Origin: an uncultured Alphaproteobacteria bacterium
Lineage (GTDB): Bacteria > Pseudomonadota > Alphaproteobacteria > Thalassobaculales > Thalassobaculaceae
Direction of reading: 5' to 3'
DNA length: 64,000 nt
Assembly (NCBI GenBank): GCA_902629125.1
Contig: CACOPQ010000002.1
Coordinates: 1-64,000 of the forward strand
Below are positions 5,601-20,192 of this stretch, piece after piece (within the stretch, counting starts at the first letter, position 1; every line of letters starts with the position of its first letter). The translations under genes were made by a program, and so were the position numbers. Below the pieces are notes generated by a model. The model made no database searches, was not told where the DNA came from, and worked only from the letters and a program-made list of their open reading frames with translations.

Positions 5601-5925
5601 TCATACAAACCTTTTCCCTTTTTCGAGATTCAATATCTCTGGCTCTCCTAGAGAATTAACAAACTCCGTAAAATTTATCCCTTTTAAAGGATCTGTACGT
5701 TTCTTGAACGTATTTGAAACAACGGACTTAAATCGCCTTCTCTCTTGTTTATAGTCAAAGGGATAAAAAAGAAATACGTCATCGTCAGGAGGCAACTCAT
5801 AGTCTTTGGGATAATCTTTCATAAATAGTATCGCTGTTAATAGTACTGATAAATCGCACTCAGCAACACAATGTTTTGGGAAAATATAAAAAACATTACT
5901 TTGATAAGCAGGATGGTCTAGGTCT
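5601..5925 (-). pseudogene. 3' remnant of a duplicated GFA-like gene (paralogue of 7234..7848)
   Basis: MKDYPKDYELPPDDDVFLFYPFDYKQERRRFKS..NTFKKRTDPLKGINF..SLGEPEILNLEKGKRF matches the C-terminus of 7234..7848; nucleotide similarity continues to about 5922 and then stops. Confidence 0.85.
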
Positions 5926-7101: not shown

Positions 7102-7213
7102 GAGTAGAATATGTCTAATTATATTTTGGTGCAGTACATAATGCATAACAAATCTTCAGATAAACACCCGTATAATAGAGACGGTATTTATCAATTTATC
7201 ATGAGAATCCCAG
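7102..7213 (+). repeat. inverted repeat copy 1 (pairs with 18699..18810)
   Basis: gagtagaatatgtctaattatattttggtgcagtacataatgcataacaaatcttca matches the reverse complement of 18754..18810 with 2 differences over 57 nt; more diverged similarity continues (tataatagagacggtatttatcaatttatca). Confidence 0.9.
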
Positions 7214-7233: not shown

Positions 7234-7848
7234 TTAAAACCTTTTTCCCTTTTCCAGACCTAATATCTTCGGCGTTCCAAGTGAGTCGATTAACGCCGTA
7301 AAGTTTATCCCTTTAAGTGGATCAGTGCGTTGCTTAAATGTATTCGCGACGGTTGGCAGAGAACGAAATCTATTCCGTTCCTGGTTATATTCAAAAGAAT
7401 AAAATAGAGGGACATCATCCTCAGGAGGTGGCTCATATTCCTTGGGGTAATCTTTCATAAATAGTATTGCTGTTAACGGTACTGATAAATCACATTCAGC
7501 AACACAATGCTTTGGGAAAATCAAAAAGACATTACTTTGATAAGCAGGGTGGTCTACCGCTATGACGGACCAACATTGATTACAATACAAACGAGTAGAC
7601 CTTCCGTCTTCACGAAGCTTATAAGCGCTCATAAACTCTTTGCCTTTGGTGGAGATAATATCAGCAGGGATATAATAACCGTGAGGTAACTGATCTGGTA
7701 TCACTGCGCTCTTAGCTGCCCTCCATTCAATACCTTGTCGACAGTCTTCGCAACCACAGCGAAAGTATTGTACTGCACGATTATCTGCTACGGTTATTTC
7801 GCACTTACCACAGTTGCAGCCAATAGTGCCAGATTGAAGATTTGACAT
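7234..7848 (-). CDS. GFA/CENP-V-like zinc-binding protein
   Basis: IGCNCGKCEITV, CGCEDCRQG, CNQCWSVIAVDHP motifs; 204 aa. Confidence 0.75.
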   Translation of the reverse strand: MSNLQSGTIGCNCGKCEITVADNRAVQYFRCGCEDCRQGIEWRAAKSAVIPDQLPHGYYIPADIISTKGKEFMSAYKLREDGRSTRLYCNQCWSVIAVDHPAYQSNVFLIFPKHCVAECDLSVPLTAILFMKDYPKEYEPPPEDDVPLFYSFEYNQERNRFRSLPTVANTFKQRTDPLKGINFTALIDSLGTPKILGLEKGKRF

Positions 7849-14265: not shown

Positions 14266-16062
14266 TTATTTTTGCGACAGCGTACTTAAAAATACTTTGA
14301 GCCCGTTGACTAGTCGTTCATTACTTTGTTGTTCTGAAAATACTATGTTTCTGCCATCTAGAACACTTTCAATAAAAGTAGGTGATGTGGTTCTGAGATG
14401 ATGAAAATGTTGTTCAGCTAATTCATAATTATTTATTTCTGACGCGTATGCGATCATAAGTGCACGTCGTATCGGTGCATTTTGAACAGCTTGAATAGCT
14501 TTTTCAGCCCAATCCAAAAACTTGTCATTATCTCTATCTACAAACGCACACATAGCCATTGTTAGATAAAAAAACCTACCTAAGTAGGGATCCTTTGGGC
14601 TTAACTTGTAAGCGCTCATTGCACAATCTTTTGCATCTTCCGACCGTGCTAGTGAAGCAAGTGCGTATGAAAGACCAAACGCCGTTTCGCTATCATTCGG
14701 GTTTAACTCTCGTGCTTTTTCTAGATCAGATAAGGCCGCCCGAAAATCACCCTGCCTAGTCCTCGTTAACCCTCTTACTCGATAACCGGTTACTGAATTT
14801 TGAATATTTCCCAGTAATTGCGTTGCTAATTCCAGAGCTTTTTGTGAAGCTCTTTCGGGAGCTTCGCCCCAACCAAACAAGCTTTTTACGAAAAGACAAG
14901 CACCAGCGTTATTATATGCGGCTTCACATTTTGGGTTAATATTTATGGCCGTTAAACACAAATTCAGAGCCAGGTCCACCTGCTCTGGTTTATTTGTTTG
15001 AAGCGCTTCAGAGATTAAGGCTGACGCTCTCCATGCTTTATCGTAGGACTCATCAAATATCCTTTGAGTATTTGTCCCTCTTGCCGATTGTTTGGAAATT
15101 ATTTCCGGCACCAAGCTCATAACCACTTGTCGAGTCACTTGCTCTTGAAGATCAAAAACATCCTCCAAAAGCCCATCATACCGCTCCGCCCATAGATGAG
15201 AATCATCATTTCCATCTATTAATTGTGCGCTGATCCGTACTTTTTGTCCTGCTTTTCTTACGCTACCTTCCAATACATATTGAACCTGTAATTCCTTAGC
15301 TGCTGTTTTCGTGTCCACAGCTACGTTTTTGAACGTAAAGGCTGAATTCCGCGAAATTACAAAGACACTATCAAATCGAGAAAGCTCTGTAATAACGTCT
15401 TCGGTAATGCCGTCACAAAAGTACTCTTGCTCGGGATCATTTGACATATTTACAAATGGTAAAACAGCGATTGAGGGTTTCATTAGCGTTGTGTTTAATT
15501 TTTGTATTTTTATTTGCTGTGTTTTGTTCACCTGTTCTATACCAGGTGGCCACATAAAAATTTCTACATCATCCTGTATATTTTTTAATTGATGGAAGCC
15601 TGTTGATACAAATTCTTCTGTTAGTTTTCCCTGAATTTCCTGGTTAACTTTTACGGGTATAGCTATTGCACTTGGGTTACAAATCGATTGAATCCTTACT
15701 GCCAAATTCACACCATCACCATAAATATCCTCATCGTCTATTATAACATCACCCGAATTGACACCGATCCGTAACTCTAATGCAACATTATCAGGGTAAG
15801 AAAGAGCGGTACGTTGCAAGGAGTTCTGAATATCAATTGCTGCTTTTAATGCGCCAACAACGCTTGGAAAATCTACAAGATAACCGTCACCCATTTTCTT
15901 AAAAATTTTCCCACTATGCTCTTTAACTATGGGCGTTAATATTTCCGTCTCAAGGCGTTTTACCAGGCCTAGAGTTCCCTCTTCATCTTGAGACATATAT
16001 TTCGAGAACGAAACAACATCTGCGGCTAAAATTGCTGTAAGTTTTCGCTCGAGATCAACCAT
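14266..16062 (-). CDS. class III adenylate/guanylate cyclase domain + TolB/FlgO-like domain + TPR protein
   Basis: AILAADVVSFSKYMSQDEEGT, KKMGDGYLVDFPS, DIYGDGVNLAVRIQ; PSIAVLPFVNMSNDPEQEYFCDGITEDVITELSR; C-terminal TPR-like helices. Confidence 0.92.
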   Translation of the reverse strand: MVDLERKLTAILAADVVSFSKYMSQDEEGTLGLVKRLETEILTPIVKEHSGKIFKKMGDGYLVDFPSVVGALKAAIDIQNSLQRTALSYPDNVALELRIGVNSGDVIIDDEDIYGDGVNLAVRIQSICNPSAIAIPVKVNQEIQGKLTEEFVSTGFHQLKNIQDDVEIFMWPPGIEQVNKTQQIKIQKLNTTLMKPSIAVLPFVNMSNDPEQEYFCDGITEDVITELSRFDSVFVISRNSAFTFKNVAVDTKTAAKELQVQYVLEGSVRKAGQKVRISAQLIDGNDDSHLWAERYDGLLEDVFDLQEQVTRQVVMSLVPEIISKQSARGTNTQRIFDESYDKAWRASALISEALQTNKPEQVDLALNLCLTAININPKCEAAYNNAGACLFVKSLFGWGEAPERASQKALELATQLLGNIQNSVTGYRVRGLTRTRQGDFRAALSDLEKARELNPNDSETAFGLSYALASLARSEDAKDCAMSAYKLSPKDPYLGRFFYLTMAMCAFVDRDNDKFLDWAEKAIQAVQNAPIRRALMIAYASEINNYELAEQHFHHLRTTSPTFIESVLDGRNIVFSEQQSNERLVNGLKVFLSTLSQK

Positions 16063-16788: not shown

Positions 16789-18585
16789 ATGACAGACCTC
16801 CAACGACACCGACGCCTTTCAGCCATAGTAATGGCAGATGTAGTTGGATATTCACTTTTGATGAATGAGGATGAAATAGCCACCTTAGAGGTAATAAAGG
16901 AAATTCAGACTGACTTAATTAATCCACTTGTGAACCAACATGGTGGTCGTATTGTTAAAACTATGGGCGATGGTTTTTTAATAGAATTCGCGTCAGTGGT
17001 AGAAGCAACACAATGCTCCATTGAAATTCAAAAATCTGTCTTACTATTGAACAGTGAAGATAAAAGCAAAAAAAATATTAATTTAAGGTTTGGTATACAT
17101 TTAGGCGATATTATAGAAACAGAAAACGATATTTATGGGGATGGCGTGAACATTGCTGCAAGGCTAGAGAGTCATTCCACACCAGGAGGTATCTGCATCA
17201 GCTCAGCTGTTCATGATCAAATTAATGGAAAGATAGATTATTTATTTCAAGAGTTTGGTAATTTAAATCTTAAAAATATAAAACATCCTATTAAAGCATA
17301 TACACTTGATTCAGATGCAATCGAGGCAAAGTTGAACGATATCGAACAAAGTTATGGCTTGTTCAATCCAAAGAGTATTGACGTGAGTGCAGCGGAGAGA
17401 CCTTCCATTATTATAATGCCATTTAAAAATCTGAGTGGTGATGATAGTGAGGGGATAGCAGACGGTATACGACTAACCTTGCATTCTACCCTAATTAAAC
17501 TTCCTGGATTATTCTTAATACATACAGGAACAGTAGAAAAATATAGAGGTCAAGCACCATCTTCTGAAGAGGTACGAAAGGAAATTAATACAAAGTATAT
17601 AATTAATGGAAGCATTCAGAAAATAGGAAATCAGATCAGAATCACAATTGAAGTAACAGATACCGACCAAGACCAAATAATATTAAGTGAGCGTTATGAC
17701 CGAATTATCCACGACATATTTTCTCTTCAGGATGAGATAGCTTTTGAGATAACGAAAACTTTAGGAGTTGAGTTCTTCGGTTTAGATAATAGTTCCGATC
17801 AAACTTCAACAAAAATTTCAGCTCCTGAAGCACAAGAAAACTTCCTTGTTGGTCTAAGTCATTTTTATAAGGGCACTCAACAAGATAATAGTATGGCACG
17901 GTCATTGTTTCAAAAAGTATTAGACATAGAACCAGAGGTGGGACGTGTTTATGGCCTTATAGGTCTAACTTATTGGCGTGATGGGAAACTGGGTTGGTCT
18001 GAAGATAAAGAAAAACAATTTGAAAAAGTAAGAGAATATGCTGAGTTGGCAGTGAAGAATAATGATCCAGATGGTATCGGAAACATACTCATGGGTAATT
18101 TATACTTACATAACAAAGAACATAAAGAGGCTCTTGAAGCATCAAAAATTGCTATGGATAAGCGACCAAGTTGCCCACTGGCCAACGCTTTATCGGCTGA
18201 GATACATCAATTTATAGGGAAACCAGAAGAAGCAGTCACTTATCTAAAACATTCAATTTCTCTCGCGAAATCATTCCCACCTTGGATGCTAAATATACTC
18301 GCATCATCTCTGCGGGATAAGGGTGATATAAACACGTCAATCGACGCTGCAAATGAAGCAGTTCGGCTTAATTATGGCTCGAATAAAATTGATGCGCTAG
18401 TGACCCTATGTTGCAACTATACTGGCCTCAATATGATGTCATCTGCGAAAAGCGTAGCTGAAACTATCTCTTCAATAGATATTCGTTTCTCTGTTACGGA
18501 TTATATTGGGAACCTACCATATACAGATAAGGATACGTTGAAAAACATCCGAAACGCCCTGCTGACGGCAGGATTAACGGAATAA
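16789..18585 (+). CDS. class III adenylate/guanylate cyclase domain + TolB/FlgO-like domain + TPR protein
   Basis: AIVMADVVGYSLLMNEDE, VKTMGDGFLIEF, DIYGDGVNIAARLE; PSIIIMPFKNLSGDDSEGIADGI; TPR-like C-terminus. Confidence 0.92.
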   Translation: MTDLQRHRRLSAIVMADVVGYSLLMNEDEIATLEVIKEIQTDLINPLVNQHGGRIVKTMGDGFLIEFASVVEATQCSIEIQKSVLLLNSEDKSKKNINLRFGIHLGDIIETENDIYGDGVNIAARLESHSTPGGICISSAVHDQINGKIDYLFQEFGNLNLKNIKHPIKAYTLDSDAIEAKLNDIEQSYGLFNPKSIDVSAAERPSIIIMPFKNLSGDDSEGIADGIRLTLHSTLIKLPGLFLIHTGTVEKYRGQAPSSEEVRKEINTKYIINGSIQKIGNQIRITIEVTDTDQDQIILSERYDRIIHDIFSLQDEIAFEITKTLGVEFFGLDNSSDQTSTKISAPEAQENFLVGLSHFYKGTQQDNSMARSLFQKVLDIEPEVGRVYGLIGLTYWRDGKLGWSEDKEKQFEKVREYAELAVKNNDPDGIGNILMGNLYLHNKEHKEALEASKIAMDKRPSCPLANALSAEIHQFIGKPEEAVTYLKHSISLAKSFPPWMLNILASSLRDKGDINTSIDAANEAVRLNYGSNKIDALVTLCCNYTGLNMMSSAKSVAETISSIDIRFSVTDYIGNLPYTDKDTLKNIRNALLTAGLTE

Positions 18586-18698
18586 AGAAATTTAGAATGG
18601 TGAGGGGTTTAACCTAAGCACCTTAAGTATTGGGTTATCTAAGGGGGACTAAATTGATACCCAGGAAGCTAAAGCTATTTTTTAGAAAAAAATTTCAG

Positions 18699-18810
18699 TC
18701 GGAATTCTTCTGATGAATTGATAAACACCATCTCGATTATATAAGAATTTTTGTGAAGATTTGTTATGCATTATGTACTGCACCAAAATATAATTAGATA
18801 TATTCTACTT
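18699..18810 (-). repeat. inverted repeat copy 2 (pairs with 7102..7213)
   Basis: tgaagatttgttatgcattatgtactgcaccaaaatataattagatatattctact is the near-exact reverse complement of the 7102..7158 core. Confidence 0.9.
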
Positions 18811-18847
18811 ATATTTCAATGATTTAGGTGTTATTTGTACGAGTTAA

Positions 18848-19146
18848 TGGTGCGGACGGCGGGACTCGAACCCGCAACCTCTAGGAGGGACAGATTTTCT
18901 TCCCAGCTACAGCTTTCGCTGCCGCCCTCAGGCGTTTGTGGGCTGGACTTTCTCTTCAGCGTAGTTCGAGGACCTTAGCTGCTGCCCGTAAAGTCTCTAC
19001 ACCTTCCTCGTTGTATTTTCGAGGCTTGGCACGGGATTGCCATTTTAAAGGTTTCCCCGTTTTTGAGCAGTTCTACTCCTATCCTTTCGCATAGGGCACT
19101 CAAATTAATTTAAGTCTGTTGTGTATACCAATTCCACCACGTCCGC
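18848..19146 (-). tRNA. tRNA-Leu(UAA), interrupted by a group I intron, CCA encoded
   Basis: Exon 1 19112..19146 GCGGACGTGGTGGAATTGGTATACACAACAGACTT; exon 2 18848..18898 AAAATCTGTCCCTCCTAGAGGTTGCGGGTTCGAGTCCCGCCGTCCGCACCA; acceptor GCGGACG/CGTCCGC, anticodon stem ACAGA/TCTGT, loop CUUAAAA; T arm GCGGG-TTCGAGT-CCCGC; 86 nt spliced. Confidence 0.93.
18899..19111 (-). ncRNA. group I self-splicing intron (213 nt) in tRNA-Leu(UAA)
   Basis: AAATTAATTTGAG...AATGGCAATCCCGTGCCAAGCC...GAAGGTGTAGAGACTTTACGGG...AAGAGAAAGTCCAGCCC...GGGAAG: P/Q-, R- and S-like elements; P1 CUU|AAA with UUUGAG gives U.G at the 5' splice site; P7-like GACUUU/AAAGUC; terminal G before exon 2. Confidence 0.92.
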
Positions 19147-19247: not shown

Positions 19248-20192
19248 TCATTCTGCCGCTTTCCTTGTTTCATCGCCATAGACGGCATATCGCCATTCTG
19301 GATAGCACTTATCTGTTCCATCGCAGATGGAGAAGAACTTCTCTTGTATAGACTTCGTCATTTTGCCAACGAAACCCGTTCCTATGTTGCTTCTATCGAT
19401 TGAAAGTATTGGTGTTACTTCCCAAGCCGTTCCGCAAAAAAAAGCTTCGTCCGCGAGAGAAATCTCAGACCGATCAATATCCCTTTCAACTGGCTCAACG
19501 TTGAAATGATCTTTTATTATATGCAAAATAGCGTCTCTAGTGACACTCTCCAAGATATCGTTTGAAATGGAAGGTGTTATTGGAATGCCGTCCCTAACAA
19601 TAAAGAAGCACATTCCTGGGCCTTCAGATACTTTGCCCCGAGAATTTAAGAATATTGCGGTATCATAGCCATCTGCTTCCGCCTGGACCGTTGCTAAACG
19701 TCCATTGTTGTAATTTGCATTACACTTTACTCGCATTGGCATTGCTTGATCCGGTACTCTCATCCAGGAGCTAACTTGTGCGGTGACCCCACCGAGCACA
19801 CGTTCACTTCTAGGGCGTTCTTGTGCAGTGATCGACAATCCAATAGGGCCACAGACACCTGGTCCACCCATTCCGGATACAAAAACCGTGGTCATAATAT
19901 GCAGGTTTTCACCTCTAAAATTATTTGCTTTGATTAACTCGACAGTTTGTTGCGCTATAGACTCTCCTGTCAGAAGTTCGTTGAAGCGCATAAAACGCTG
20001 AGAGAACTCGAGCCGGCGCATGTGTTCTTTCATGCGAAAAAGGTACATTTCTTCGTTGGATTTATTCCAATAGCCTCGCAAGCCTTCGAAAACCGCTGTT
20101 CCAAACTTAAAGCCTGCTGAGGCTACATGAACTTGCGCTTTATCCCATTCAACTATTTCACCGTTCAATGATGCAAATTTAGGTGTTGTCAT
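19248..20192 (-). CDS. ilvE: branched-chain amino acid aminotransferase
   Basis: FGTAVFEGLRGYW, MRVKCNANYNNGRLATVQAEADGYDTAIFLNSRGKVSEGPGMCFFIV, AFFCGTAWEVTPI. Confidence 0.9.
   Translation of the reverse strand: MTTPKFASLNGEIVEWDKAQVHVASAGFKFGTAVFEGLRGYWNKSNEEMYLFRMKEHMRRLEFSQRFMRFNELLTGESIAQQTVELIKANNFRGENLHIMTTVFVSGMGGPGVCGPIGLSITAQERPRSERVLGGVTAQVSSWMRVPDQAMPMRVKCNANYNNGRLATVQAEADGYDTAIFLNSRGKVSEGPGMCFFIVRDGIPITPSISNDILESVTRDAILHIIKDHFNVEPVERDIDRSEISLADEAFFCGTAWEVTPILSIDRSNIGTGFVGKMTKSIQEKFFSICDGTDKCYPEWRYAVYGDETRKAAE

Follow-up and report, generated by a model that had tools for sequence, protein, structure and literature searches.

A small group I intron splitting the anticodon of a tRNA-Leu(UAA) gene belongs to a lineage widespread in the Alphaproteobacteria

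Group I introns in the anticodon loops of bacterial tRNAs are textbook knowledge, and the small tRNA introns of Anabaena and Azoarcus self-splice in vitro. Reviews list group I introns in cyanobacterial, alpha- and betaproteobacterial tRNAs (PMC4033280), and the alphaproteobacterial tRNA-Arg(CCU) intron of Bartonella, a relative of the intron described here, splices both in vivo and in vitro (PMC7717549). In Beggiatoa and Ca. Thiomargarita, introns have been reported in tRNA-Leu-TAA and tRNA-Arg-TCT (PMC4853749). One paper notes that the tRNA caller tRNAscan-SE was not designed with the detection of such introns in mind (PMC8450103). Our literature search, which is weak evidence as the main specialist papers lay outside it, found no reports of alphaproteobacterial tRNA-Leu(UAA), tRNA-Leu(CAA), tRNA-Lys, or tRNA-Thr introns.

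The gene studied here lies at 19146..18848 on the minus strand of the window (the whole 64,000-nt stretch of DNA that was analysed). A 5′ exon of 35 nt (19112..19146; GCGGACGTGGTGGAATTGGTATACACAACAGACTT), running from the acceptor strand to U34, is followed by a 213-nt insert with a terminal G (18899..19111) and a 3′ exon of 51 nt (18848..18898; AAAATCTGTCCCTCCTAGAGGTTGCGGGTTCGAGTCCCGCCGTCCGCACCA), which runs from A35 to the encoded CCA and has the discriminator A73. The insert splits the tRNA-Leu(UAA) anticodon between U34 and A35. Run without introns, ARAGORN found no tRNA in the whole window, in agreement with the remark of the first-pass annotation that a simple tRNA caller might miss or mis-annotate the gene. 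When introns were allowed, it returned tRNA-Leu c[18848,19146] (taa) i(36,213), which places a 213-nt intron after base 35. Given only the spliced exons, it recognised an 86-base tRNA-Leu(taa) with a class II cloverleaf, the UAA anticodon, A73, and CCA all present. This call is identical to the one read from the sequence in the first-pass annotation, including coordinates, exons, the anticodon loop CUUAAAA, and the insert length. Moving the junctions by 1–3 nt leaves the mature tRNA unchanged owing to an AAA repeat, and the rule that the exon ends in U and the intron in G selects the unshifted junctions, placing the insert exactly where it had been proposed.

The Rfam model Intron_gpI (RF00028) matches positions 18925-19121 of the minus strand over its full length (1-253) with 58.2 bits, above its cut-off of 50 bits (E 4.4e-14 for the 801 bases searched and 3.5e-12 for the whole window), as expected from the initial assignment to group I. 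This is the sole Rfam match reaching its cut-off in the window and the only Intron_gpI match in the genome assembly. A match to HPnc0260 on the plus strand (18738-18883; E 0.03; 37 bits, below its cut-off of 59) was rejected, as it mostly covers the tRNA 3′ end on the opposite strand. No homing endonuclease ORF is present in the 213-nt intron, whose longest stop-free frame comprises 64 codons; homologous introns are 198–281 nt long.

The P1 helix, the P/Q, R, and S elements, the GAAA-capped hairpin, and the terminal G were all recovered in the sequence. In P1 (19098..19115, minus strand), UUUGAGU pairs with the exon bases ACUU and the adjoining intron bases AAA, and U34, the last exon base, faces a G to form the U.G pair at the 5′ splice site. 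P2 pairs CCUAU with AUAGG. The catalytic core from P3 to P7, including P8, occupies 18945..19070 (minus strand; ends approximate by a few bases) and consists of P3 (CUGCUC/GGGCAG), P4 (ACGGG/CCCGU), P5 (CC/GG), P6 (GCC/GGU, with P6a CCUCG/CGAGG), P7 (GACUU/AAGUC, within the AAAGUC/GACUUU pairing noted at first), and P8 (CAGC/GCUG). It is followed by a P9 domain of two hairpins, the second of which is GAAA-capped and precedes the terminal G. The same architecture is found in the congeneric genomes G001, G003, and G004, in the last case partially, at a contig end.

Covariation was assessed in a MAFFT alignment of 60 distinct tRNA-Leu(UAA) introns. Pairing is complete in P3 to P8 (100% of cells) and reaches 91% in P1, and double-sided pair changes were found in P3 (3), P4 (1), P5 (1), P7 (2), P8 (2), P9.1 (4), and P9.2 (4). 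When the partner strand was slid by one or two columns as a control, pairing of the core helices fell to 1–78%, indicating that the fold is not due to chance. The exon anticodon stem is 97% paired across the junction, again with covariation. The basal P9 as initially drawn was paired in only 76%; inspection by eye suggests that this helix is CCC/GGG here and ACC/GGU in most other introns, a compensatory change. A possible P10 (UUU with AAA of the 3′ exon) showed no excess over slid controls. The folding z-score of the whole pre-tRNA, calculated from single-sequence energy, is only −1.86, as expected for a pseudoknotted ribozyme because such folding ignores the P3/P7 pseudoknot. The intron aligns well with the IC3 introns of Azoarcus and Anabaena and probably belongs to subgroup IC3.

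Group I matches were found in at least 31 of 395 genomes drawn evenly from the class Alphaproteobacteria, a lower bound as few candidates were scored per genome. Introns were assigned to tRNAs by a rule-based splice fit; applying ARAGORN to candidates spliced by brute force produced numerous spurious anticodons. By this fit, 14 introns of the survey interrupt tRNA-Leu(UAA), and the others interrupt tRNA-Leu(CAA), tRNA-Lys(UUU/CUU), tRNA-Thr(GGU), or tRNA-Arg(CCU). A scan of named genomes yielded at least 120 stretches; tRNA-Leu(UAA) is interrupted by an intron in 66 of the matches listed and intact in 51. Counting all 120 pattern matches as introns was wrong, as these 51 are intact tRNA-Leu(UAA) genes with GAGTGC in the variable arm; apparent introns in Planctomycetota, Verrucomicrobiota, WOR-3, Absconditabacterales, and Tistrella were dropped with them. 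An Rfam match in locus L017 (E 5e-4) has no surrounding tRNA and was also dropped.

The intron-bearing loci among the matches listed are mostly alphaproteobacterial (Bradyrhizobium, Caulobacter, Sphingomonas, and others), and intron-bearing isolates include Bradyrhizobium lablabi, Sphingomonas yantingensis, Pelagibacterium luteolum, Camelimonas lactis, Chelatococcus reniformis, Aureimonas frigidaquae, Xanthobacter agilis, and Methylocapsa palsarum. The gammaproteobacterial isolate Tahibacter aquaticus also carries a tRNA-Leu(UAA) intron. The intron of the window belongs to a lineage that is widespread in alphaproteobacterial tRNA-Leu(UAA) genes. The view of the first-pass annotation that such introns are rarely reported in proteobacteria was too strong, given the 66 cases among the at least 120 loci listed and the published gammaproteobacterial examples (PMC4853749). 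Porisulfidus MAGs also have introns of the same type, as do MAGs labelled Acidobacteria and Cytophagales, reflecting either transfer or misbinning (these loci and that of Tahibacter are L154, L140, L173, L090, L111, and L120). Within the family of the window, there are four genomes (G002, G020, G022, and G027) in which it is tRNA-Leu(CAA) that is interrupted by a related intron, with the cut after U33; tRNA-Leu(CAA) introns cut after U33 were seen at loci L012, L013, L015, L004, and L043, from this family and one other genome. Further alphaproteobacterial group I introns lie in tRNA-Lys(UUU/CUU) and tRNA-Thr(GGU) genes (L014, L042, L037, L044, L052, L053, L054, and L055). An alphaproteobacterial draft genome (G117, locus L033) contains a plastid/cyanobacterial-type tRNA-Leu(UAA) intron, probably a contamination from an algal plastid.

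The phylogeny was based on 98 rows and about 196 columns with the guide region left out; the rows include Anabaena and Azoarcus introns, and the cyanobacterial/plastid sampling comprises one cyanobacterial sequence and one plastid-type locus. The intron of the window groups with those of its genus, genus g8, a Magnetovibrio MAG, and a Cytophagales MAG, the last possibly misbinned. A single group (99/98) contains the proteobacterial introns of Leu(UAA), Arg(CCU), and Thr(GGU); outside it fall the Lys, most Leu(CAA), Ile(CAU)/Arg(UCU), cyanobacterial, and plastid-type sequences. The first-pass annotation had likened the intron to that of cyanobacterial and plastid tRNA-Leu(UAA); this holds for the insertion site and the group I type, and the question of a common origin is where the tree is less favourable. 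Common descent with the cyanobacterial/plastid intron, as opposed to independent arrival at the same site, would account for the same position in the same gene, and the AU test on these about 196 columns does not reject a clade that joins the proteobacterial with the cyanobacterial Leu(UAA) introns (p-AU 0.26–0.30). On the same columns, monophyly of the Leu(UAA) introns without Arg is not rejected either (p 0.43). The free tree, however, unites the proteobacterial Leu(UAA) introns with those of Arg(CCU) and Thr(GGU) and sets the cyanobacterial/plastid pair apart, and the presence of the intron is patchy even inside one family. We regard shared ancestry as the less probable history. An origin independent of the cyanobacterial intron is favoured by the best tree. 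More broadly, these introns may represent a large, mostly unannotated family lacking endonucleases that spread among the anticodon loops of alphaproteobacterial tRNAs (Leu-UAA, Leu-CAA, Lys-UUU/CUU, Thr-GGU, and Arg-CCU), in each case following a U and with guides retargeted to the recipient anticodon, probably by reverse splicing, and that colonised the Leu-UAA site independently of cyanobacteria. We put this scenario forward tentatively, as a possibility that we would not yet favour.

For the locus itself, we are highly confident that it represents a small, endonuclease-less group I intron after U34 of tRNA-Leu(UAA) that would be spliced to give a normal tRNA and belongs to an alphaproteobacteria-wide lineage; this is a genuine intron of an already known kind, in an under-annotated lineage. 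Before splicing, the 3′-terminal ACUU of the 5′ exon would pair with GAGU, the internal guide of the intron, and a guanosine bound in P7 would attack the phosphate following the U.G pair. The freed 3′-OH of U34 would then attack after the terminal G, joining the exons to the 86-nt tRNA. We infer that the transcript is spliced, that the reaction is autocatalytic, and that its product is the sole decoder of UUA. A real intron whose splicing depends on a host protein, and which is not autocatalytic alone, appears improbable: group I introns at times need protein co-factors, but the Bartonella tRNA-Arg(CCU) intron, a small tRNA intron of the same type, self-splices in vitro (PMC7717549).

UUA is the commonest leucine codon in the long ORFs of the window (434 of 1500), and its decoding requires a UAA anticodon. 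Pattern searches revealed no intact tRNA-Leu(UAA) in the genome of the window (G000, 68% complete) or in G001, G003, G004, and G012, the single match in G001 being a chance CAA-like match. Likewise, no intact copy was detected by pattern in 20 of 21 intron-bearing genomes of 91–100% completeness, and in G045, G104, G403, G623, and G691, which lack an intact copy, the intron is located on a chromosome-sized contig. Of 15 good same-family genomes without a reported Leu(UAA) intron, 14 did contain an intact gene by the same pattern; thus, interrupted and intact genes are nearly mutually exclusive, with G010 and G179 as exceptions. In G010, the interrupted copy lies on an 1818-bp contig that is possibly misbinned. 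As no intact copy was found in the genome or in 20 of 21 relatives, the interrupted gene is probably the sole, essential tRNA-Leu(UAA) and would have to be spliced. The suggestion of the first-pass annotation that it may be the only such gene thus gains support from the relatives, and the draft genome itself is consistent with it. That the locus is a tRNA pseudogene with a decayed, non-splicing intron, an intact tRNA-Leu(UAA) being encoded elsewhere (for instance in the part missing from the draft assembly, as the intact-like matches beside the interrupted genes of G010 and G179 might suggest), is very improbable in view of the perfect core and tRNA, the architecture shared with the congeners, the compensatory evolution of the helices, and the lack of a pattern match to an intact copy in 20 of 21 intron-bearing genomes.

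The genomic context permits a comparison of occupied and empty sites. The upstream neighbour is a branched-chain aminotransferase-like ORF (19248..20192, minus strand; named by eye), and tblastn searches showed that this gene adjoins both interrupted and intact tRNA-Leu(UAA) genes in the family, with the tRNA directly downstream of it. At this locus, the intron is present in genera g1 and g8 (L001, L003, L005, L006, L008, L010, and L011), and the gene is intact in G020 (L022), G011 (L207), G006 (L024), G025 (L209), and G030 (L210). This is a true present/absent site: orthologous positions either hold the intron or lack it. Immediately downstream of the interrupted tRNA, we observed a 34-codon remnant resembling an integrase N-terminus (DUF6538-like; 18682..18786, minus strand; weak Pfam match, E 0.019). 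Loci L005, L010, and L011 were considered for comparison; L010 and L005 have a much longer integrase-like frame at this position, and a second copy of the remnant with 86% identity lies at 7103..7211 (plus strand). Mobile elements probably use the interrupted tRNA-Leu gene as a site of integration. Elsewhere in the window, two neighbouring ORFs of 598 aa (14266..16062, minus strand, and 16789..18585, plus strand) were judged by eye to have adenylate/guanylate cyclase-like domains and repeat-rich C-termini, and a direct repeat of 191 nt with 83% identity is found at 5730..5920 and 7366..7556, 1636 nt apart.

The moderate interest of this intron stems from the hidden breadth of its distribution. 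A gene of this kind is easily lost in annotation, in which case UUA, here the commonest leucine codon, would seem to be without a tRNA. The wide but patchy occurrence, together with intact alleles at the same locus, offers a natural system in which to study the inheritance, loss, and movement of such introns, and to ask whether the well-known cyanobacterial/plastid tRNA-Leu intron stands alone or whether this anticodon was reached several times.

Compared to known systems, the intron resembles the cyanobacterial/plastid tRNA-Leu(UAA) intron in its host tRNA, its U34/A35 insertion site, the P1 guide GAG, and in needing no endonuclease, but it differs in its core (GGTGTAGAGACT..GACGGGCAGC vs. 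GGTGCAGAGACTC..ACGGGAGC) and falls outside that pair in the tree. With the Azoarcus tRNA-Ile(CAU) intron (IC3), it probably shares a small IC3-type architecture and has core motifs in common, whereas P3 is of the GGUGUC/GGCACC type in Azoarcus and CUGCUC/GGGCAG here, and the two are on separate branches. The tRNA-Leu-TAA introns of Beggiatoa and Ca. Thiomargarita likewise represent putative group I introns in a proteobacterial tRNA-Leu(UAA), albeit from Gammaproteobacteria and likened here by description; that study determined neither their structure nor their type (PMC4853749). The alphaproteobacterial tRNA-Arg(CCU) intron of Agrobacterium and Bartonella comes from the same bacterial class and belongs to the same tree group with a very similar core, and differs in residing in another tRNA, with its junction after position 36 and another guide sequence.
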